Shown here: positions 3,405 through 26,978 of the stretch, one piece after another | How the letters are laid out: each line of letters opens with the position of its first letter | Position numbering within the stretch: position 1 is the first letter of the stretch | Assembly (NCBI RefSeq): GCF_004339665.1 | Contig: NZ_SMMU01000029.1 | Location: 1 to 42,129, forward strand | Source of the DNA: Azotobacter chroococcum | GTDB taxonomy: Bacteria > Pseudomonadota > Gammaproteobacteria > Pseudomonadales > Pseudomonadaceae | Reading direction: 5' to 3' | Length of the DNA: 42,129 nt | The notes under the pieces: model-generated | What the model was told of the DNA's origin: nothing | The model's input: the letters and a program-made list of their open reading frames with translations, nothing else | Database searches by the model: none | Translations under genes and position numbers: made by a program

Positions 3405-3798
3405 TGGGCTTGTCTCGGTAGTAGATGACGCGCAGGTAGCGGCGCTCGAAGTCGGTGATGCGGAGCCAGCGGCAGCCTGTGCGCTGGTTCGTCTCGAGCA
3501 CGGCGAGCCGGCCCTCGGCCTCGATCACCACGCCGACGTGAATGCAGAGCTGCCCGCGGAACACGGCGGCGATGGCCCCCGGATCCGGCGCGCACTGCTC
3601 CATCAGATCGGCCTGCAACTGGTAATCCCGCTGAGCGCCCGGGCTGGCCTTCTCGTGCCGCCCGTACTCCGGCAGCAGCGGCAAGCCGTAGACCTCGTGG
3701 CGCACCGCCCGGGCGAGCCCCCAGCAATTCAGCGCGTCCGGCCCCATTGCGCCGTCTCGGTAGGGCGTTGCCAGGTATCGATCGATCCAGCTACTCAA
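3394..3798 (-). CDS. NlpC/P60-family tail assembly peptidase
   Basis: This 134-residue protein has the NlpC/P60 arrangement: catalytic Cys in DALNCWGLAR (about residue 25) and His in CIHVGVV (about residue 87). The family cleaves peptidoglycan stem peptides; in siphophages it corresponds to the C-terminal half of lambda gpK and is a tail-tip component that may open the wall during DNA entry. No JAB metalloprotease domain is present, so this is a reduced gpK. The start appears to be TTG at 3796-3798, overlapping the end of the Bro-N gene; the first in-frame Met would fall only seven residues before the catalytic Cys. It reads directly into the J-like gene. Confidence 0.82.
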   Translation of the reverse strand: MSSWIDRYLATPYRDGAMGPDALNCWGLARAVRHEVYGLPLLPEYGRHEKASPGAQRDYQLQADLMEQCAPDPGAIAAVFRGQLCIHVGVVIEAEGRLAVLETNQRTGCRWLRITDFERRYLRVIYYRDKPNAD

Positions 3799-4282
3799 GG
3801 GCGAGTACCAGCTGCCGGCGCTCGCTCCAATAGTTGAGGCTGGCCTGCAGCGGCGCCTTGATCTGCTTCCAGCGGCTCAGGCCCTTGCCGCACTCGCTGG
3901 CGGCCTCCTGGCTTTGCATCAGTTCATCGCGCGCCCGCCGGTACTGCTGCATGACGTACTCGCCGCCCTTGTGCAGGGCGTCCAGGATGTCGAGCACCCA
4001 GCGACGGAACTCCTTGGCCGCCTTGGTGCGGGCGAACATGGCCAAAAGGTGGGCGCCGCGCAGGGAGAAGATGCGGGTCTTCTGCATGCCGCCGGCGGAC
4101 GGCAGATCGATCACCGCCGTCATCGAATCGGTGAACTCGTCGGCGTTGCGCTCATAGAGCTGCTGGACCTTGTAGGGATTGGCGTAGCCAAGGGCTGCCC
4201 CAATCTGGGGCAGCCTTGCCCACAGCTCGCCGTCGCGGGTGATCATCTCAATATGGCAGTCGCCGAAAGTCAGTTCGCGCAT
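3791..4282 (-). CDS. Bro-N domain protein (antirepressor-like), inserted in the tail-tip operon
   Basis: From the ATG at 4280-4282 the protein has 163 residues and begins MRELTFGDCHIEMI. The N-terminal part (GELWARLPQIGAALGYANP ... KTRIFSLRGAHLLAMFARTKAAKEFRRWVLDIL) matches the Bro-N/antirepressor fold, a DNA-binding domain common in phage Ant and KilA proteins. A longer in-frame extension upstream is unlikely because it runs through a structured leader and terminators. The gene sits between the DUF1833-like and NlpC genes with its own leader RNA (4314-4372) and preceding terminators, so it is an added cassette. Its target and function are unknown. Confidence 0.78.
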   Translation of the reverse strand: MRELTFGDCHIEMITRDGELWARLPQIGAALGYANPYKVQQLYERNADEFTDSMTAVIDLPSAGGMQKTRIFSLRGAHLLAMFARTKAAKEFRRWVLDILDALHKGGEYVMQQYRRARDELMQSQEAASECGKGLSRWKQIKAPLQASLNYWSERRQLVLALE

Positions 4283-4313
4283 CAAGTAGTCCTCGCTCAC
4301 CGGGAAATAAGGT

Positions 4314-5393: not shown

Positions 5394-8057
5394 TTATCGC
5401 CCCTGTCTCTGCATGCCATACGAGCGCTCCATCACCGTCCCGAGTCTCGAATCACCGGCAGCGATGCCGCCAACGAGCCTGTCCTCGACGGCCCTGATGA
5501 CAACCTCAAGCTCTCCGCTCCGGTTCCGCTGAGTCTCCACCCGGCTGTTGCTGTAGTTGTTCACCACGACGTTCATCCCGCCTGCACCCTGCTGCTGCCC
5601 GCTCAGGTACTGCTTCAGGTCTTGGTTCGTGCGGCTATCCACGACGCGCTCCCCCTTGTCGAGCAGCCAGGTGCCCTCGCGCGGCACAGAGTCGATGCCG
5701 TCGTGGGCCATGCCAGCGACTGAGGCGATATCTGCCGCAAAGGTGGCTGCCGATGCCGCGGCCGTCGCGGCAGCAGCCGGAGCGGCGAACGGACCGACAA
5801 TCGGGGTTGCGGCCATTGAGGTGAAGGCGTTCAGTGCCGCCATGCTCACCTGAGCGGTCGCCCAGCGGATCAGCATCTGCAGGGCGGTACCCACGAAAGC
5901 CTTTTGCAGATCCTGGAAGGAAAGCTTTCCGGTGGTGACGAAGCCGAACAGCGCTTCCTCCATTCCACCGAATGCGGTGGCGAATAGCTGCTCGCTCTGC
6001 GCTGCGACTGACGTCTGCTCGTCAAGGTAGTTCTGCCAAGCACTGCTGAGCCCATTCGTCCAATCGGCCTCAGCCTCTTTCTTGCGCTGAGCCCCCTCTT
6101 GGATGATGGCAATCTCCTGCTCCTCGGCGGCCCGAAGAGCGTCTATTCGCGTCTTGAACTGATCTTCGGGCAGGCCGTTGGCGGTGCCCTGTTGACGGGC
6201 CAGTTCCTCGCGGCTCTTGGCGTACTCCCGCTGAATGGCGTTGACCTGCTCCAGCTCCTGCCTGGCACGGTCGCCCAGGCCAACGCCCTGAACGGCGATG
6301 TCGACTGCGTTCTGGCGGTTACCGACGCGCTCCTGCAGCGTGGCCATCCATTGGGCCTGCTCGGCCAGCCTGTCCCTGGCCTTGATCTGCTCCTCAAGGG
6401 CGGCATTTTCGGCAAGCTGGGCGGTGATTGCACCCTGGTTGGCCAGCAGGCTCTTCTGGTCTGCAGTGAGGATCTTTTTCTCTTTCAGGTCGGCCAGTTG
6501 CTGCGCCCACTCGACCTGGGCGCGCTGGGCTGCGGTCAGCTTGTCGTTTCCGGCTAGCTGGGCCTGCAGGCTGGCTTCCTGCTCGCGCAGTTGCTGGAGC
6601 ATGCGGGTGGCGGCGTCGTCGGTGAAGGCGCGCTGGCGGCGCGGAGCAGGATCACTGAACTGCTTTTCCGCAGCCTCTCGAAGCTGTCGGATCTGCGCCT
6701 CCGAGTAGATGACGCCAGTCTCGGCGGCAGCCTTCACTTGCTCGTCGATTTCCCTATAGCGCTGCTTTAGCTTGTCGGCATTGCTGGCTGATCGATCAAG
6801 CGCGGCGTTCAGTTTCTGCTGGGAATCAACCGAATCCCTGTTGATACCTGCCAGCTCTCCTTGCCATGCAGCTTCGGTGTCGCGCTGCTCCTTCAGTAGC
6901 AAAAGCCTAGTGCGCTCTTGCTCTAGGCCTGACATGGTTTCCGATGCGCCTCTTGAGGCCTGCATCCCGGTGCGGGATTGGGCGGTCTTGATGCGCTCCT
7001 CAACAGCGGCCAACTGCTCTTCAAGCGTGTCCGGCCGCCCAACATTAAGCATGGCATCCCATGCCTCGGCGGCAGCGCTGGTGACTGATCGCCATCCGCG
7101 CTGGAGTAGACCGAGACTGCCCTCTACCTGGGCTGCTCGCTGCTGGACCGCCGCGGCGTAGGTGTCGGTCGCCAGCTTGGCCGCCTCAGTGGTGCGGCCT
7201 TGTTCTTCCAGGGCGCGGATCTGCTCGTAGACGCTACCGGTCAGGAAGTTGTACTGCTCGTTGAGCGTGGCCGCTGCCTTGGATGGCTCGTCCGCCAACT
7301 TGGCGAACTCCTTGACGGTTTCCGATACGGCCCGCCCGGTAGCGCGCTCCATGTCGATGGCCGATTGGGCGATCAGCTGAATCTGGTCGGAGGCGAACTT
7401 TCCGGTAGCGGCGACCTCGGTAAGCGCTGCGGCCGCCTGCCGCTGCGTGCCGCCCATCTCATCCATGGCCTGAGCCATGTTGGCCAGCTGATCTGCGCTG
7501 GTGCCGGCCGCATTGCCGGTCATGGCCAAAGCCTGCTGGTAGGCCTGCGCCTCGTTCTGCCCTTGCTGGTAGGCCAGAAGCAGCGCGCCAAGGGTTGCCG
7601 CCACGCCACCAAAGGCGAGATTCAGCGGTCCCAGCGTGGAGACAACAGCCCGAGCAGCGTTGCCGATTCCGCCAAACGAATCGCGGACCTGCCCGCCCTG
7701 CTGAATTGCAACCATCCAGATTGGCATGCCGCTTGCTATGCTGACAGCCACGTCAGTGAGCTGCATGGGCAGCATCCGCATTGCCTGCTCATACTGTCCG
7801 GCGGATAGTCCGGCACGCTGCATGATGTCGGCCTGCCGCCGGGATGCCGCAGATACTCGGTCAAGGCCGCCAGCAGCCGCAGCCGCCGCAGCACCTGCCC
7901 GGCCGGCGCTCTCTCCGACTGAGCGCATGGAGTCCCGCACGTCACCAGCGGCAGACTCCGCGCGACCTCCTGCCTGAGCCAAGTCGTTGAGCGCCGACTC
8001 AGCCCTAGCCACATCACGCGTGTTGATCTCGATGGACAGGCTAGCGATGTCGACCAT
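5394..8057 (-). CDS. Tail tape measure protein
   Basis: This 887-residue protein begins MVDIASLSIEINTRDVARAE and is the longest tail gene apart from the tip. It has the expected plan: an N-terminal helical region (1-130), hydrophobic segments (about 150-215), long coiled coils rich in Ala, Gln and Glu (300-700), and a hydrophobic Ala-rich C-terminal part as in lambda gpH. It fixes tail length and probably helps DNA cross the inner membrane. The start at 8055-8057 is chosen because GGAGG lies 5-9 nt upstream; the longer in-frame extension crosses a terminator and the end of another gene. Confidence 0.93.
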   Translation of the reverse strand: MVDIASLSIEINTRDVARAESALNDLAQAGGRAESAAGDVRDSMRSVGESAGRAGAAAAAAAGGLDRVSAASRRQADIMQRAGLSAGQYEQAMRMLPMQLTDVAVSIASGMPIWMVAIQQGGQVRDSFGGIGNAARAVVSTLGPLNLAFGGVAATLGALLLAYQQGQNEAQAYQQALAMTGNAAGTSADQLANMAQAMDEMGGTQRQAAAALTEVAATGKFASDQIQLIAQSAIDMERATGRAVSETVKEFAKLADEPSKAAATLNEQYNFLTGSVYEQIRALEEQGRTTEAAKLATDTYAAAVQQRAAQVEGSLGLLQRGWRSVTSAAAEAWDAMLNVGRPDTLEEQLAAVEERIKTAQSRTGMQASRGASETMSGLEQERTRLLLLKEQRDTEAAWQGELAGINRDSVDSQQKLNAALDRSASNADKLKQRYREIDEQVKAAAETGVIYSEAQIRQLREAAEKQFSDPAPRRQRAFTDDAATRMLQQLREQEASLQAQLAGNDKLTAAQRAQVEWAQQLADLKEKKILTADQKSLLANQGAITAQLAENAALEEQIKARDRLAEQAQWMATLQERVGNRQNAVDIAVQGVGLGDRARQELEQVNAIQREYAKSREELARQQGTANGLPEDQFKTRIDALRAAEEQEIAIIQEGAQRKKEAEADWTNGLSSAWQNYLDEQTSVAAQSEQLFATAFGGMEEALFGFVTTGKLSFQDLQKAFVGTALQMLIRWATAQVSMAALNAFTSMAATPIVGPFAAPAAAATAAASAATFAADIASVAGMAHDGIDSVPREGTWLLDKGERVVDSRTNQDLKQYLSGQQQGAGGMNVVVNNYSNSRVETQRNRSGELEVVIRAVEDRLVGGIAAGDSRLGTVMERSYGMQRQGR

Positions 8058-8477: not shown

Positions 8478-8502
8478 CAAAAGCCCAGCGCTAGGCTGGG
8501 CC
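8478..8502 (-). terminator. Intrinsic terminator directly behind the mini-CRISPR
   Basis: On the minus strand GCCCAGC (from 8501) pairs with GCTGGGC (to 8483), followed by UUUU. It begins 1-2 nt after the degenerate second CRISPR repeat, so a transcript of the array would end here. Confidence 0.8.
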
Positions 8503-8503
8503 C

Positions 8504-8593
8504 TTGATCATCCCCGCTCACGCGGGGAACAGGCAACGAAATCACCAACTTTGTCCTGCACATCCGGTTCATCCCCGCTCACGCGGGGAACAC
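8504..8593 (-). CRISPR. Two-repeat type I-E mini-CRISPR array with one 32-nt spacer
   Basis: A 29-nt repeat at 8565-8593 reads GTGTTCCCCGCGTGAG... to ...GGGGATGAACCG on the minus strand, the standard type I-E repeat with a CCCCGC/GCGGGG hairpin and GUGA loop. A second copy at 8504-8532 differs at 4 positions, all near its ends, as terminal repeats often do. The distance from one repeat start to the next is exactly 61 bp, the I-E unit of 29 + 32. The spacer is 8533-8564. No cas genes are in the window. The array lies 28 nt behind the Rha-type gene on the same strand and is closed by a terminator, so it is probably transcribed with the antirepressor-like operon and processed by host Cas6e. Confidence 0.88.
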
Positions 8594-8621: not shown

Positions 8622-9350
8622 TTAAGCCACCTGCGGCCCAGGCTCGTCGAGCCCAAGAACCCCAAGAACGTCTCTATTCCACAGGATCTGATAACCTGCA
8701 TGCCCGCGCCGCTCGAACGGCATTGCCTCAGCCCACCTACGGCCGGCCTCGGTTAGCTCCCAGTCGCCACGATCATTCTTGAGTTGCAGGCCTGCTCCGG
8801 CCAGAGCAAGGTTTGCGGCCTTGCCAGACATCCCTACCAGTTTTCCGAGGGCTGTGGCATTCAGGTCGCATACCGGATCGTTCTTGGCCGGAAGCGCCTT
8901 GCGGGCCTCCGTTACATCAAGCCCGGTATTCACCTCGATCATGCCCAGGGTGCAAGCCATGGCAATGCCCGGCTTTATGCCCGGAACCTGCTTGATGGCC
9001 TCGCCGATAAGCAGTAGAGCCGAGACAGTATCTTGCATGTCTGCAGCGATCGCAGGCACATGATCTGGAACCTTCTGCTCAAGCTCATGGATGCGGCGGA
9101 TGACCTTATGGCGAAGTGGGATGCTGTAGCCGGTCACCAGCGTCTCGGTCAGCTCGCGGTCAAGATGGAACTGTTTCGTGTAGCCGCGCGCGTCTTTGTC
9201 CTCGCCGACATGGCTCAAATCTGAGCCATCTTTTTCCAAAGCATCCAGCATTTCGCGTATGTCGCGAAGGACGTTCTTATGCTCCTTCCCGGTCAGCTTA
9301 GCGATCTCGCGGGAAGACATGGTTACAGGCTTGGTCATCAGCGCGCTCAT
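8622..9350 (-). CDS. Rha-family antirepressor-like protein
   Basis: This 242-residue protein has an N-terminal Rha (pRha) region of about 100 residues: MSSREIAKLTGKEHKNVLRD ... FHLDRELTETLVTGYSIPLRHKVIRRIHELE, with the typical 'SREIA..TGK.H.NV' DNA-binding motif. A separate C-terminal domain (about 130-242, LNATALGKLVGMSGKAANLA) looks like the C-terminal winged helix of phage antirepressors. The ATG overlaps the stop of the BRO gene (ATGA), so the two are co-translated. Such proteins inactivate repressors or bind DNA; the target here is unknown. The mini-CRISPR follows downstream. Confidence 0.8.
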   Translation of the reverse strand: MSALMTKPVTMSSREIAKLTGKEHKNVLRDIREMLDALEKDGSDLSHVGEDKDARGYTKQFHLDRELTETLVTGYSIPLRHKVIRRIHELEQKVPDHVPAIAADMQDTVSALLLIGEAIKQVPGIKPGIAMACTLGMIEVNTGLDVTEARKALPAKNDPVCDLNATALGKLVGMSGKAANLALAGAGLQLKNDRGDWELTEAGRRWAEAMPFERRGHAGYQILWNRDVLGVLGLDEPGPQVA

Positions 9351-10225
9351 GCTGCCACCCCACGACTCTCGGAATACCGATTCAGCCCAAGGCGGCGCTG
9401 CACGGCGTCGAACTCAGTGGCCAGCTTCTTGAGCTTGATGACGCCTGTGTAGCCGTCCAGGAAGTGGCCGATCATATCGCTTCCGATACGGCTGCCGAGG
9501 CCGCCCAGGTGCACGTGCAGATTGGATCGCTTGAAGATTTCGTAGAGGCGCTCGAAATGGTGCGCCACGAACCAGACGTCGTAGAGCTGCATATCAGTCA
9601 GCAGGTGGCCAGATTCAGGCTCCTTGCCCATCCACTCACCCTCGATGGCATAGGCGGCGATGAAGTTGCAAGCGTCTGCCAGTTGGTCGGCCGGGATGAG
9701 CGATGTCTTCTGCACGTTGAATCGGGTGCGAAGGCGGCTTTTCATCGTGTGCTTGAAGCTGCGCTGCAGGGCCGGGTCAATCCGGGATCCCTTCTGCTCA
9801 ATCACCCGATCAAGGACGATCTCGCCCGTGCTGCCGATGACATCACCAACCAAGGTCGTCATGGTGCCTTTGGCGTCCTCATAGCGGCCATGCTTGCGGA
9901 TGGCCGGGAGGACCTCGGCAGTGACCCACTTGCGGAATGCATGCGGCTTGCTGCCCTTCTTCACTGCGTCGCGGCAGCGAAGGATCAAGGTGTACAGGCC
10001 AGATTCGTTGACGATATTGGCCTCTCCCTGACGACCTATGTTGAACATAGACCGTTCATCGTCATCCAGGGCCTGCAAGGCCTGCGTGGTGTTTGCCACA
10101 TCAATGATGCGGCATACATCGGATGCCACGAACCACGGATCGCCATTGATCGGGATGGCGCGGACGCTCTCCCCGCGAAAGTCAAAGGGGATGATCTGGG
10201 TTGCTGCTGTGCTATTCTTGCTCAT
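9347..10225 (-). CDS. BRO-family antirepressor-like protein
   Basis: From ATG 10223-10225 the protein has 292 residues. Residues about 10-115 form a Bro-N domain (PINGDPWFVASDVCRIIDVANTTQ ... KPHAFRKWVTAEVLPAIRKHG). Beyond it is a long helical C-terminal region (SRLRTRFNVQKTSLIPADQL ... LKKLATEFDAVQRRLGL). AGGA lies 10 nt upstream of this ATG; another ATG nine bases upstream is too close to that site. It lies downstream of an Arc-like repressor with a stem-loop in the leader, the arrangement of an immI-type antirepressor gene held silent by Arc/Mnt proteins. Confidence 0.8.
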   Translation of the reverse strand: MSKNSTAATQIIPFDFRGESVRAIPINGDPWFVASDVCRIIDVANTTQALQALDDDERSMFNIGRQGEANIVNESGLYTLILRCRDAVKKGSKPHAFRKWVTAEVLPAIRKHGRYEDAKGTMTTLVGDVIGSTGEIVLDRVIEQKGSRIDPALQRSFKHTMKSRLRTRFNVQKTSLIPADQLADACNFIAAYAIEGEWMGKEPESGHLLTDMQLYDVWFVAHHFERLYEIFKRSNLHVHLGGLGSRIGSDMIGHFLDGYTGVIKLKKLATEFDAVQRRLGLNRYSESRGVAA

Positions 10226-10261
10226 GACGTTCATTTCCTGTGCGGTTTTGACGTTGTCTTC

Positions 10262-10298
10262 CGAAGCCCCGGCGTCTCGTACACGCTGGGGCTTTTTC
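10262..10298. other. Stem-loop in the leader of the BRO gene
   Basis: AAGCCCCGGCGT (10264-10275) pairs with ACGCTGGGGCTT (10283-10294) with one mismatch. The U run (10293-10297) is on the plus-strand side, so it resembles a plus-strand terminator. Read on the minus strand it is a stable hairpin between the Arc stop and the BRO start and may modulate translation of the antirepressor. Confidence 0.55.
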
Positions 10299-10301
10299 AT
10301 T

Positions 10302-10466
10302 TCAGGCCGCTGCCTGCTTGCTTTGCTCATCGCTCTCCACCGACTGCTTAAGCCTGAAGATCACCTCTGCCGTACGGCTTCGGCAGTTTGCTTTTGCCTT
10401 CTCATCAAGGATTTCCAGCAGCTCCTCTGGGATCCTCATGTTTACCTGCGGGTCTTTTCTACTCAT
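10302..10466 (-). CDS. Arc/Mnt-type ribbon-helix-helix repressor
   Basis: This 54-residue protein begins MSRKDPQVNMRIPEELLEIL, the Arc/Mnt signature in which the short N-terminal strand (QVNMRIP) binds DNA as a dimer; it continues ANCRSRTAEVIFRLKQ. The start at 10464-10466 matches the family length, and the longer in-frame extension runs through operator repeats. It is divergent from a second Arc-like gene at 10588. It probably represses the downstream BRO and Rha genes and its own promoter. Confidence 0.85.
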   Translation of the reverse strand: MSRKDPQVNMRIPEELLEILDEKAKANCRSRTAEVIFRLKQSVESDEQSKQAAA

Positions 10467-10478
10467 TGCGCCTCCAAA

Positions 10479-10545
10479 TGCATCACCGTGATGCAGCAAA
10501 ATCCTATAACCGTGATGCATTGCTGTCAATAGCACGGTGATGCAT
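10479..10545. promoter_or_regulatory. Triple operator between divergent Arc-like genes
   Basis: GTGATGCA occurs three times, at 10488-10495, 10512-10519 and 10537-10544, about 24-25 bp apart (one face of the helix). The first lies inside a perfect 17-bp palindrome, TGCATCACCGTGATGCA (10479-10495). The position between two divergent ribbon-helix-helix genes makes these the likely Arc binding sites controlling both promoters. Confidence 0.75.
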
Positions 10546-10587
10546 GCTTTTGTAAACCGAAATCGCCTGTCATTTGGATAGATGTCC

Positions 10588-10944
10588 ATGAGCCGCACTG
10601 ACCCTCAGTTCAATCTCCGCATCCCGCAGTTCCTGCGGGATCGGGTCACGGCAGCTGCTCAGGCAAACAAGCGATCGGCGACTGCCGAGATCCTTGCTCG
10701 CCTGGAAGAAAGCTTCCACCTCGAGGATCTATCCAAAATTAGCGAAATGAATCAGGAAGACCTTGAAGTGATTGAAGCCATGAAGGCCGGCGATGAGCCC
10801 GAAAAGCTCTATACCGCCGACGACATTAAGCAGGCGATTACGCAGGTCTTTCAGCGGTTAGAGACAACCGGGCGCGAAAAAGGCAAACGACCAACTTGGA
10901 ACGGACACGGGCCAAAGCCAGCGAAGCGTTACCGCCAGGAATAA
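10588..10944 (+). CDS. Arc-like ribbon-helix-helix regulator with acidic/basic C-terminal tail
   Basis: This 118-residue protein begins MSRTDPQFNLRIPQFLRDRV, clearly related to the Arc-like protein at 10302-10466, followed by NKRSATAEILARLEESF. A C-terminal extension of about 60 residues, ending in a basic tail (KPAKRYRQE), is not part of the usual Arc fold. An ATG six bases upstream (10582) is a possible alternative start; GGAT lies 8 nt before the chosen one. It faces the BRO/Rha operon divergently and reads toward the VRR-NUC gene. I infer the Mnt-like partner of an immI-type switch. Confidence 0.8.
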   Translation: MSRTDPQFNLRIPQFLRDRVTAAAQANKRSATAEILARLEESFHLEDLSKISEMNQEDLEVIEAMKAGDEPEKLYTADDIKQAITQVFQRLETTGREKGKRPTWNGHGPKPAKRYRQE

Positions 10945-10971: not shown

Positions 10972-12006
10972 ATGTCCCTGCTTGAGCGTTTCATGGGGCT
11001 ACTCTCACGCAGCCCGATAGCCGTAACAGGCGCCACGCCTAACCAAGATCACGACCGCCCAAGGGTAAAACAGACATCCACAGACCTAAGCGATCCGAAA
11101 TTTCTGCTGACTACAGAAGATAAGTTCGCGATTCGAATGGCCATAGTGAGGGACGGGGTAGAGTCAATTGAGAACGTGACCAAAGGCGAGAAGCTTCTCT
11201 ACCTACGTGACACCATGCAATTTTTTGGAGAGAACGAGCTATATCTGAGATCGCTTTTTTCTCCAGATTCTGTGCCCAGAAAGCCTATCAATCCATTCTC
11301 CCCCGAGGCATACGCTCCAGTCTCTGAGCTTCCTTGCCCATCAAGCGGATGGCCTATCAAGGAAGAAAAGATTTCCATACCACTTGAAGGATCTCCAGAG
11401 CAGGTTGCCCTAACCCTGCTGTCACAGAACGGTTGGACCGGAATCCATTCGGAAGGGCAGACAATCCGGTGCATCTTTCGGGCCCTGCTTCTTCCATACC
11501 TTATAGAGCATAACCCCTATAAGGCAGTCGACCCTCTCAGCACCCCCTTATGCCATGCGATTCATTACTTGATCCCCATGACGGCTGCCGGCCTTGATCG
11601 AATGCTTGCCAATAGCAAGGAGGTCCCTCGTGCTCCCATTGAGGAAATGCATCGACTCATCGATTACAGGCTTTCTCTTCCGTCCTGCGTGATTCAAGGT
11701 GACTTTGACATCGTCGCCAAGTCGCATGGCGAAGTGTGGCCAAAAACTCCCCATTCAGGTCTTCATATCGATCAATACCTGTCAGCTATCCCAGGAGAGT
11801 TCTGGCATTCGCTTCTTGAAATTTATGCCAGACAAGACGGCAGCCTTAGCAATGGATGGCCAGACCTTGAAATTACCAATGGGAAAGAGGTCATGCTTGT
11901 CGAAGTCAAAGTCAAAGATCGGCTAACTCCGCATCAGCGGCTTACTATTCCTGTGCTCATGGCGCTTGGCCTAAAGTGCCGGATCGTTAGACTGATCAAG
12001 ACCTAA
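10972..12006 (+). CDS. VRR-NUC-like nuclease with unknown N-terminal region
   Basis: This 344-residue protein carries a C-terminal PD-(D/E)XK nuclease of VRR-NUC type: SNGWPDLEITNGKEVMLVEV, then KVKDRLTPHQ and LGLKCRIVRL. The catalytic Asp (PDL), Glu (VEV), Lys (KVK) and Gln (HQ) are in order. Residues 1-280 match nothing I can name. The AT content is higher than in neighbouring structural genes, suggesting separate transfer. It follows the plus-strand Arc-like gene by 27 nt and may be co-transcribed from the lysogen-state promoter. It is a candidate phage-borne nuclease for attack on competitors or host DNA; the role is inference. Confidence 0.72.
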   Translation: MSLLERFMGLLSRSPIAVTGATPNQDHDRPRVKQTSTDLSDPKFLLTTEDKFAIRMAIVRDGVESIENVTKGEKLLYLRDTMQFFGENELYLRSLFSPDSVPRKPINPFSPEAYAPVSELPCPSSGWPIKEEKISIPLEGSPEQVALTLLSQNGWTGIHSEGQTIRCIFRALLLPYLIEHNPYKAVDPLSTPLCHAIHYLIPMTAAGLDRMLANSKEVPRAPIEEMHRLIDYRLSLPSCVIQGDFDIVAKSHGEVWPKTPHSGLHIDQYLSAIPGEFWHSLLEIYARQDGSLSNGWPDLEITNGKEVMLVEVKVKDRLTPHQRLTIPVLMALGLKCRIVRLIKT

Positions 12007-12700: not shown

Positions 12701-13042
12701 ATGGCAGACAATCCCATCATCCTTGGCGTCAAATTCTTCCGCACTGAAGCGGGAAACGAGCCCGTCCGCGAATGGCTGGCTGACCTGCCCAAGGAGTCGC
12801 GCCGGTTGATCGGCATGGACATCAAGACCGTTCAACTCGGCTGGCCCATTGGTATGCCGGTAGTCCGCAAGCTAGAACCTGGGCTATGGGAGGTCAGGAC
12901 CGACCTTGGCGACACCATCGCCAGGGTGATCTTCACATTGGTCGATACCGAAATGGTGCTTCTGCACGGCTTCATCAAGAAAAGCCAGAAAACCCCTCCA
13001 GGCGACCTGAAGACCGCCAAACAGCGCAAATCAAGGTTATGA
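12701..13042 (+). CDS. HigB/Gp49-type toxin of the RelE superfamily
   Basis: This 113-residue protein begins MADNPIILGVKFFRTEAGNE and has the phage-derived Gp49-like (HigB) pattern: PVREWLADLPKESRRLIGMD, PVVRKLEPGLWEVRTDLGD, ARVIFTLVDTEMVLLHGFIKKSQKTP. This family cleaves mRNA on the ribosome and is held by an XRE antitoxin. The antitoxin gene follows after 11 nt, giving the toxin-first order typical of higBA. The pair is inserted, in opposite orientation, between the accessory block and the tail chaperone genes and may stabilise the prophage. Confidence 0.85.
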   Translation: MADNPIILGVKFFRTEAGNEPVREWLADLPKESRRLIGMDIKTVQLGWPIGMPVVRKLEPGLWEVRTDLGDTIARVIFTLVDTEMVLLHGFIKKSQKTPPGDLKTAKQRKSRL

Positions 13043-13053
13043 GGTGACCGCAC

Positions 13054-13356
13054 ATGAACAATCACATCGGCTCAGACTTCGATGACTTCCTGTCAGAACA
13101 AGGCCTTCTTGAGGAGGTTTCCGCTGCCGCCCTCAAGCGCGTCATCGCCTGGCAACTGTCCGAAGCCATGAAGGCCCAGAAAGTGACCAAAAAGGCTCTC
13201 GCAGCCCGCATGCACACCAGCCGCGCCGCAGTTGACCGCGCGCTCGATCAAGGCGACGCCAGCATGACCCTGGCGACCCTGGCCAATGCCGCCAGGGCGC
13301 TCGGACAGCGTGTCGAGGTTCGCCTGGTTCCCGAAGCAGAAGCCGCTCACGCCTGA
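13054..13356 (+). CDS. HigA-like XRE antitoxin
   Basis: This 100-residue protein has a helix-turn-helix of XRE type: QKVTKKALAARMHTSRAAVD, then RALDQGDASMTLATLANAAR and GQRVEVRLVP. It partners the HigB-like toxin directly upstream, with GAGGTGA before the ATG. It should neutralise the toxin and repress the shared promoter. Confidence 0.85.
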   Translation: MNNHIGSDFDDFLSEQGLLEEVSAAALKRVIAWQLSEAMKAQKVTKKALAARMHTSRAAVDRALDQGDASMTLATLANAARALGQRVEVRLVPEAEAAHA

Positions 13357-14781: not shown

Positions 14782-15279
14782 TCAGGCGGCATCAAAGCCG
14801 AGCGTCAGCTGTAGCTGGTGACGCCAGTGGTCGACTTCGTGCTCGAGGCCCGGCTTGCGCCATCGCCACTTGGCTAGTTCCTTGGCATTAAGGCTGGCCA
14901 TCGACTGGCCATCGGAAAGTGCTTTGCAGGCCCGGTCGAATTGCTGCTTCTCGGTCAGCTCGCCGCGCAGCAATGCGTCGATGTGCAGGTCCGCCCACAC
15001 GGCGAAGTCAGGCGAAATCCAGCGGGCTAACGCCACAGCGAGCTTCGGATGCAGCCAGGTGCCGCCGCTGCGGCCGCGCTGGGCACGAATCAAATCCCTC
15101 GAATCTGAGGTATTTAAATGGCGAGCCAGCGCGGCGATGTAAGCCTCTGTCTCTTTGTTGCGCAGCCAGTTATCAAGCCGCAGGCCGTGACCTGCCGCGA
15201 TATCGGTTGCATTGATCCACCCGTCGCTGTTGAACCGCACCGGCTGGCCTTGGTAGTGAAACGGGATGACATTGCTCAT
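14782..15279 (-). CDS. KilA-N domain protein, inserted in the tail operon
   Basis: This 165-residue protein begins MSNVIPFHYQGQPVRFNSDG and contains WINATDIAAGHGLRLDNWLR, TWLHPKLAVALARWISPDFA and WADLHIDALLRGE, the full KilA-N DNA-binding domain. A C-terminal helical part follows (SLNAKELAKWRWRKPGLEHE). The start at 15277-15279 is chosen by domain length; the longer extension crosses a structured element. Like the Bro-N gene at 3791-4282 it sits between tail genes with terminators upstream and a related leader RNA. Function beyond DNA binding is unknown. Confidence 0.82.
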   Translation of the reverse strand: MSNVIPFHYQGQPVRFNSDGWINATDIAAGHGLRLDNWLRNKETEAYIAALARHLNTSDSRDLIRAQRGRSGGTWLHPKLAVALARWISPDFAVWADLHIDALLRGELTEKQQFDRACKALSDGQSMASLNAKELAKWRWRKPGLEHEVDHWRHQLQLTLGFDAA

Positions 15280-15310
15280 GGCGTTACCTCGCCCATCAGT
15301 CGAATAGGAG

Positions 15311-15368
15311 CGCAGCCGGGCCGGCGGATGAGCGGACACCGGTTTTCGATTGGCCGATCTAGGCTGCG
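15311..15368 (-). ncRNA. Structured leader RNA, copy B (upstream of the KilA-N gene)
   Basis: On the minus strand CGCAGCC (15362-15368) pairs with GGCTGCG (15311-15317). Inside it CCGGTG (15337-15342) pairs with CGCCGG (15321-15326), including one U-G pair, around the loop TCCGCTCATC. Compared with copy A (4314-4372) the stems carry at least three compensatory changes, while the loop and the CTAG following the first strand are conserved. Confidence 0.65.
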
Positions 15369-15393
15369 TTTTTGGTTGCCTTGCGGCGAAAAA

Positions 15394-15448
15394 GAAAACC
15401 CCGCTCAGGGCGGGGCTCAGAAAGACAAAAGCCCGCACAGGGCGGGCT
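15394..15448 (-). terminator. Two tandem intrinsic terminators before the KilA-N cassette
   Basis: A GCGGGCT/AGCCCGC hairpin (15430-15448) with U4 and a GCGGGG/CCCCGC hairpin (15399-15415) with UUUUC lie directly downstream of the acidic-protein gene and upstream of leader copy B. This repeats the layout at 4378-4435. Confidence 0.75.
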
Positions 15449-26316: not shown

Positions 26317-26328
26317 CGAGACGAGGTG

Positions 26329-26511
26329 ATGAAGTACAGCGAGTTCAGGCGATGGTTGAAGGCCCAAGGGGTGACGTTCGAACCTGCCAAAGGCAGCCAC
26401 TGGAAAGTCACTGCACCGAACGGCAAAACGACGATCTTCGCGGACCACGGCAGTAAGGAAATGAAGGAGCCGACCCGCAAAGGAATCATCAAACAACTGG
26501 GGCTCGAATGA
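26329..26511 (+). CDS. hicA: HicA toxin
   Basis: This 60-residue protein begins MKYSEFRRWLKAQGVTFEPA and continues KGSHWKVTAPNGKTTIFADH, then GSKEMKEPTRKGIIKQLGL, the complete HicA double-stranded-RNA-binding fold with catalytic His in GSHW. HicA degrades mRNA. A GTG one codon upstream is possible. The gene is on the strand opposite to the surrounding late genes and has its own promoter. Confidence 0.9.
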   Translation: MKYSEFRRWLKAQGVTFEPAKGSHWKVTAPNGKTTIFADHGSKEMKEPTRKGIIKQLGLE

Positions 26512-26552
26512 GCCCCTTCGCCGCTCGCAGAATTCATCACCCAGGAGGATCC

Positions 26553-26978
26553 ATGTACAACTACGCAGTGACCCTGCACACCGACGACAACCCAGGCGTG
26601 GCGATCACCTGCCGCGACCTGCCCGAGGTCAACAGCTATGGCGATACCATCGAGGAGGCGCTCCGCGAAGCCATCGACGGCATCGAGTCTGCCCTGAGCA
26701 TCTACGTCGACCAGCGCCGGCCGATCCCGGCAGCCTCGGATCCCGAGCCTAGCGAGCGCGTCGTGCACCTGCCGGCCGTCACCGTCGCCAAGATCGCCCT
26801 CTGGAACGCCATGATGGAGCGCGGCATGCGCAAGGCTGATCTGTGCCGCCTGCTGGACGCCAAGCCGGTTGCCGTCGACCGCCTGGTGGACTTTCTGCAC
26901 ACCTCGAAGATGGAGCAGATCGAGCGGGCCTTGGCAGCTCTCGGCAAGCGCCTGTCTGTTTCCGTCGAGGCAGCCTGA
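26553..26978 (+). CDS. hicB: HicB antitoxin with C-terminal helix-turn-helix
   Basis: This 141-residue protein begins MYNYAVTLHTDDNPGVAITC, followed by RDLPEVNSYGDTIEEALREA, the HicB partial RNase-H fold. A DNA-binding C-terminus follows (RGMRKADLCRLLDAKPVAVD ... ALAALGKRLSVSV). AGGAGG lies 6 nt before the ATG, which decides the start. It neutralises HicA and represses the promoter. Confidence 0.9.
   Translation: MYNYAVTLHTDDNPGVAITCRDLPEVNSYGDTIEEALREAIDGIESALSIYVDQRRPIPAASDPEPSERVVHLPAVTVAKIALWNAMMERGMRKADLCRLLDAKPVAVDRLVDFLHTSKMEQIERALAALGKRLSVSVEAA

Follow-up and report, generated by a model that had tools for sequence, protein, structure and literature searches.

A type I-E mini-CRISPR array behind an Arc-Ant-Rha antirepressor cassette in a prophage of Azotobacter chroococcum

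What is a single CRISPR spacer, enclosed by two repeats at the end of a run of antirepressor genes, doing in a prophage? The question is raised by a stretch of 42,129 nucleotides from Azotobacter chroococcum, hereafter the window, which is contig C29 of the host genome (4.86 Mb, 99 contigs) and corresponds to the IMG/VR UViG 2802428852_000002. Profile scans found genes for the major head protein, portal, terminase and tail as well as one for a CI-like repressor, and the carrier is a siphophage-like prophage. The feature is of a known kind, that is, a phage-borne mini-CRISPR array, and this assignment is well supported; the original survey of such arrays in phages and prophages is reportedly that of Faure et al. 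in 2019. The unusual part is the placement behind antirepressor genes, which occurs twice, in differing form, in one genome. The array probably lends a crRNA to the Cascade of the host against competing phages.

The mini-CRISPR feature, which an earlier note had described from the sequence as two type I-E repeats 61 nt apart with a 32-nt spacer, is confirmed as real and exactly placed. In the crRNA sense, which is the minus strand, Repeat 1 (R1, 8565..8593) is a complete 29-nt type I-E repeat with an intact 8-nt 5' handle, ATGAACCG. The spacer (8533..8564, minus strand) and Repeat 2 (R2, 8504..8532, minus strand) follow. R2 differs from R1 at four of the 29 positions (1, 26, 28 and 29), all at its ends, so that its first base is changed and its handle is degenerate (ATGATCAA), and the stem-loop is untouched. 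An exact direct repeat of 24 nt thus occurs twice at a spacing of 61 nt, whereas 10 simulations of the window by a first-order Markov model gave, at spacings of 20-100, longest exact direct repeats of 10-15 nt and no occurrence of the I-E core pattern. The claim that the array stands behind an antirepressor operon on the same strand and is closed by a terminator is upheld as well: the Rha stop codon lies 28 nt before R1, and a GC-rich hairpin followed by TTTT, predicted from fold and pattern to be an intrinsic terminator (8478..8503, minus strand), starts immediately 3' of R2. The predicted fold contains separate hairpins for R1, for R2 and for the terminator, with additional pairing of the leader with the spacer around R1, and the fold of the array stretch beats 200 of 200 shuffles (z -3.6). 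With a single spacer flanked by CRISPR repeats and located in phage DNA, it counts as a mini-array, for which one or two spacers are expected. Since a motif from the leader of the host array on contig C13 was not found in the window and R1 is preceded by the end of rha, there is no host-like leader here, such as would mark an array competent for adaptation. The description of the array as lacking cas genes stands for the 28 window genes scanned, among which PHROGs, Pfam or PADLOC named no Cas protein.

The proteins in question are encoded elsewhere in the host genome. Contig C13 carries cas3, cse1, cse2, cas7, cas5, cas6e, cas1 and cas2, in that order; the seven genes from cse1 to cas2 exceed the cut-off of I-E-specific models, and cas3 exceeds that of the core and HD models, its match to the whole-protein model being below cut-off. 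In the array by this locus two repeats are full and a third is degenerate, and two more stretches are repeat-like. The earlier note had proposed a comparison with chromosomal I-E repeats of Pseudomonas; the present host is probably not Pseudomonas in the narrow sense, and comparison with its own C13 repeats gave agreement in the stem and the 8-nt handle, which are the same in R1, and disagreement in the loop, where three bases differ. R1 thus matches, in stem and handle, the repeat of a host system with a complete I-E cas locus. All four genomes of the genus examined have cas6e, and the host genome contains two nifH-family matches over cut-off, as suits Azotobacter. No spacer of the C13 array matches the window phage within 7 mismatches. 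In addition, the exact R1 repeat is present in two members of the family, G161 and G108, in which a search for cas6e found none. In G161 a seven-repeat array (L199:1256-1651) agrees with R1 in its loop and has what looks by eye like the leader of the host array; in a genome without detected cas6e it is perhaps an orphan array. A solitary I-E repeat also lies on host contig C54 (L017:10680-10708), in surroundings that look chromosomal by eye, and no second repeat was found beside it on that contig.

The spacer can be read through as DVQDKVGDFV and a split codon. That it came from a gene of a related phage had been supposed, and this is supported by a protospacer preceded by AAG, a canonical I-E PAM, in a related siphophage contig of IMG/VR (L020); the peptide is a conserved tape-measure motif. 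The search of phage and plasmid sequences that had been suggested gave this result in one part only. Matching of the spacer by blastn to 50,697 phage records and 72,556 plasmid records reached best E-values of 0.3 and 0.2, respectively, that is, chance level, and these matches were rejected as better protospacers. The L020 site was found by scanning IMG/VR with a codon-degenerate spacer pattern, in which no PAM was required and changes were allowed only at ten wobble positions. This pattern had two matches, the window's own contig and L020, and the reversed pattern had none; about 10^-4 chance matches are expected, as estimated from about 50 bits in the fixed bases, an assumed ~10^11 bases and both strands. 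L020 is identical to the spacer at 28 of 32 positions, with mismatches at 6, 21, 24 and 27, all of which are synonymous, but necessarily so because the pattern varied the ten wobble positions only. The seed in type I-E comprises positions 1-5, 7 and 8, and every sixth position is tolerated; by this definition all four mismatches would fall outside the seed. The site is located in an open frame of 569 residues belonging to a tape-measure gene, the relatives of which are found in D3-like phages. A 131-nt stretch of L020 also aligns at 85% with the window phage (15284-15413), so the two draw on common modules.

The motif itself is widespread. KDVQDK.GDF is encoded by 66 IMG/VR loci, AAR being required in the pattern; among these L020 has the fewest mismatches to the spacer, two loci have 5 and the others 6-12. 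Of the 66 loci, 42 match the seed and 25 match it and also have AAG, numbers that reflect little beyond codon choice because the pattern left only seed position 3 free. A homologous segment is found in 65 phage records, many annotated as tape measure and including D3 and PMG1; the site of D3 has 12 mismatches to the spacer, and 12 prophage sites from family genomes have 8-12. The spacer has its target in a related virus, and no site was found in its carrier: the window contains no second spacer site within 10 mismatches, and its own tape-measure gene (5394..8057, minus strand), which PHROGs assigns to phrog_24, a family different from the best family of the target gene, has no site similar to the spacer. 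The degenerate pattern had no match in the genome_contigs collection, its AAG-bearing form at up to 2 mismatches found the array alone in the host genome, and in 398 family genomes there was no close spacer site besides the window's own array. A likeness of 20/32 in G161 was dismissed as chance.

The genes before the array were assigned by profile scans. An Arc-like repressor gene (10302..10466), an Ant/BRO-N antirepressor gene (9347..10330), the start codon of which is possibly further inside, and an overlapping Rha-family antirepressor-like gene (Pfam Phage_pRha, 8622..9350), the last of this Arc-Ant-Rha cassette, are all on the minus strand, and a second Arc/Mnt-like repressor gene (10582..10944) is divergent on the plus strand. 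Between the two Arc-like genes sit a promoter-like site, TTGACA-17-TAGGAT (10501..10529, minus strand), pointing to arc, ant, rha and the array, and, around it, repeated CACCGTGATGCA-type motifs (10479..10544), one of them a 15-nt palindrome, which are candidate operators by pattern. The promoter-like site is a consensus match only, with 10 of 12 consensus bases, and the region has three such sites against 1.2 expected in shuffles. With a predicted promoter of its own and a terminator the cassette seems self-contained and insert-like; a small gene of no assigned family and then the tape-measure gene lie downstream of the terminator. The immI module of phage P22 (mnt/arc/ant) has divergent Arc/Mnt-type repressor genes that control an antirepressor gene. 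The cassette is like it in its divergent repressor genes and antirepressor gene, in which Arc domains and BRO-N/Rha were identified, and unlike it in that ant is followed, ahead of the terminator, by rha and a putative crRNA unit; its operators and promoter are candidates at pattern level. Array transcription would probably be under Arc-type control, and gene order and the predicted promoter hint at a possible coupling of the array to the lytic switch.

Adjoining the cassette is a gene with a C-terminal VRR-NUC nuclease domain (10972-12006), for which PADLOC gave no match. Two more genes, at 3791-4300 and 14782-15438, encode regulators that are antirepressors or KilA-N-like (KilA-N by eye), so that the window phage has at least four such regulators when the Rha and Ant genes are counted.

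Is the arrangement peculiar to this phage? Relatives of the Rha gene occur at 66 viral loci including the window contig, and the window's alone has an array in the examined flanks; none was found in those of the 65 other viral loci, of 13 genome loci or of L019. L132, whose Rha is the nearest relative found (69% identity), retains the 3' flank of the gene, lacks the array and then continues into other sequence, and the array is consequently a gain or loss at the edge of a module. No relative with the same array but another spacer was found among the loci compared. The host genome has a second prophage-like locus, on contig C1, in which a two-spacer array (L016:7950-8098, minus strand) overlaps the end of a Rha/Ant frame, 467 residues long, around its stop. 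This array, fused to a different Rha/Ant gene in the same genome, may point to a recurrent module. A viral contig whose name points to another IMG genome than that of the host (L121, IMG/VR 2811995032_000003) contains 416 nt of the L016 locus at 99.8%, with the same spacers. A 28-base codon-degenerate pattern of L016 spacer 2 matched in IMG/VR only this array copy, and blastn of the L016 array against phages gave partial matches, none over more than 80% of the query. Among the loci compared, a site for L016 spacer 2 in the window has 7 mismatches and no PAM and was taken as chance. The reading frame that follows the L016 array is PAAR-like by eye.

A general rule that mini-arrays follow antirepressor genes was rejected. 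There are 37 distinct viral loci with such repeats besides the window, of which 19 were scanned for the upstream gene, L121 was covered through its twin L016 and the other 17 lay outside the scan. An antirepressor gene is upstream in L121/L016 only. None of the 19 scanned loci has one, although 10 of these have no family match; small transcription regulators precede the array in L091, L099 and L109, and 6 loci have other phage genes. Another two-repeat array (L127:3619-3709, IMG/VR 2811995032_000004) has in its vicinity a CI-like gene, which shares 76% identity over 149 nt with the CI-like gene of the window. On the viral contig L101 (R1 at 1816, minus sense) the first spacer of the array recurs, with one mismatch, at a distance of about 400 nt.

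Because the parts essential to a crRNA are intact, the phage target is flanked by a PAM and the host has the proteins, the reading in which the array lends a crRNA is favoured. In this reading a transcript of arc, ant and rha, from the presumed Arc-controlled antirepressor promoter or by read-through, would end 3' in R1, spacer and R2. Host Cas6e would cleave both stem-loops to release one crRNA, to which R1 contributes the handle and R2 the 3' hairpin; it is predicted to be about 61 nt long, 5' ATGAACCG-GATGTGCAGG, with the 3' end in the R2 hairpin. For crRNA production R2 requires only its stem-loop, and the stem-loop is what R2 has retained. With this crRNA the I-E Cascade and Cas3 of the host would attack the conserved tape-measure segment of competing siphophages. 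The anatomy, the host cas genes, the protospacer with its PAM and the lack of a detected self target are observed, and we infer that the array is transcribed and processed, that interference follows and that the phage benefits. More speculatively, and with rather low confidence, the crRNA may be coupled to the antirepressors, so that one repressible operon would yield, on a single transcript, proteins that inactivate the repressor of a rival prophage in the same cell and a guide that leads the host I-E system to the rival's tape-measure gene; if this is true, the rival would be induced and eliminated at a single stroke.

The earlier note had proposed two functions, targeting of rivals and an RNA anti-CRISPR, and the sequence cannot fully separate them; the former is the probable one, and the latter, in its pure form, is rather unlikely. 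As an RNA anti-CRISPR (Racr) the repeats would occupy host Cas6e and Cascade and shield the carrier phage, with the spacer as a passenger. Solitary phage repeats do work in this manner, including two I-E candidates tested against the P. aeruginosa I-E system, according to the parts of the Racr report at hand (PMC10651486). Expression timed by an antirepressor promoter would be apt for an anti-CRISPR, R2 by itself could be a solitary unit, and the window array, like a Racr, would be a phage-encoded repeat mimic acting on host Cas proteins. Against this, a decoy has no need of a 32-nt spacer with a PAM-flanked phage target, and the handle of R1 is perfect. Racrs are solitary, with no partner repeat within 100 bp, whereas here a second repeat stands at 61 nt and the spacer is phage-targeting; SRUFinder, the search used for Racr discovery, leaves out clustered repeats and mini-arrays (same excerpts of PMC10651486). 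A Racr-like role in parallel with crRNA lending is possible.

Much less probable is that the array is inert, the remnant of a host array that was caught by recombination and is now drifting, even though R2 is degenerate, the array is leaderless and the closest Rha relative does without it. R1 is undamaged, as is the stem-loop of each repeat, and the four changes of R2 lie where crRNA production should not need the original bases. Degeneration of the last handle is also seen in other viral arrays. From 45 IMG/VR loci with such repeats (the window included, some possibly host arrays), 24 distinct uncut arrays were taken, single repeats and other spacings being excluded; the last handle is degenerate in 7 of the 24, among them the window's, and inner handles in 0 of 59. 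Because an array entered this count only with its stems and one or more perfect handles, stem conservation is no result and inner handles are favoured. Two arrays cut by contig ends were excluded, one of which, L120, is also degenerate. Terminal decay is seen in arrays of family genomes as well (L200), which suits a relic of host origin, but the similarly placed array in the second prophage-like locus of the genome does not. The predicted rha transcript has the array at its 3' end, and this location would also allow a regulatory RNA, in which the crRNA or the hairpins control the antirepressor operon or a host gene. This is scarcely credible: the host search with the AAG-bearing pattern at up to 2 mismatches gave no site besides the array, and an Rfam scan of the array stretch found no family at E up to 1.

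Compared with known systems, the proposed crRNA-lending array has close parallels. Phage mini-arrays have a single spacer with a complete and a truncated repeat, or host-like repeats with targets in related viruses, in the passages available from four papers (PMC8616872, PMC7099407, PMC11656645, PMC6858448), and passages of two of them describe phage arrays without host leaders (PMC6858448, PMC7099407). The window array is like these in its one spacer, host-like repeats, absence of detected cas genes and leader, and target in a related phage with none found in the carrier. It is unlike them in that its repeat loop is three bases off the repeat of the resident host and that it ends an Arc-Ant-Rha cassette, a placement absent from the passages of PMC6858448, PMC7099407, PMC8616872 and PMC11656645. 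Prophage arrays of Clostridium difficile are located in structural modules and have spacers against other phages of the host (cited in the part of PMC4916379 at hand); the window array likewise lies among tail genes, but host and repeat are different. Cyanophage N-1 also bears an array with host-like repeats and without Cas proteins of its own, but with five repeats and a leader, reported transcription during infection and no known spacer targets (PMC4916379, in part). The Saccharolobus portogloboviruses SPV1 and SPV2 have Cas-less arrays of 1-2 spacers against competing viruses, but they are archaeal, with host-like leaders and reciprocal spacers in both viruses, which are not seen here (excerpts of PMC6858448). 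The word antirepressor, in that spelling, is absent from the texts of PMC10651486 and PMC11656645 and occurs three times in that of PMC4916379 as far as available, and a literature search pairing antirepressor with CRISPR arrays or Racr gave no such operon in titles and the beginnings of abstracts.

Mini-arrays of bacterial viruses are known mainly from surveys, and the competition experiment in the cited literature, as far as its passages go, is archaeal. The present host genome combines a complete-looking I-E system with two arrays that follow antirepressor genes, a PAM-bearing target and a predicted repressible promoter, and it makes testable the idea that temperate phages use the host CRISPR on rivals in time with the lytic switch.

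The window phage has further genes of accessory type. A Gp49-like gene with an HTH-like partner (12701-13356) and a HicA-like gene with its neighbour (26326-26978) each resemble a toxin-antitoxin module carried as a phage accessory.
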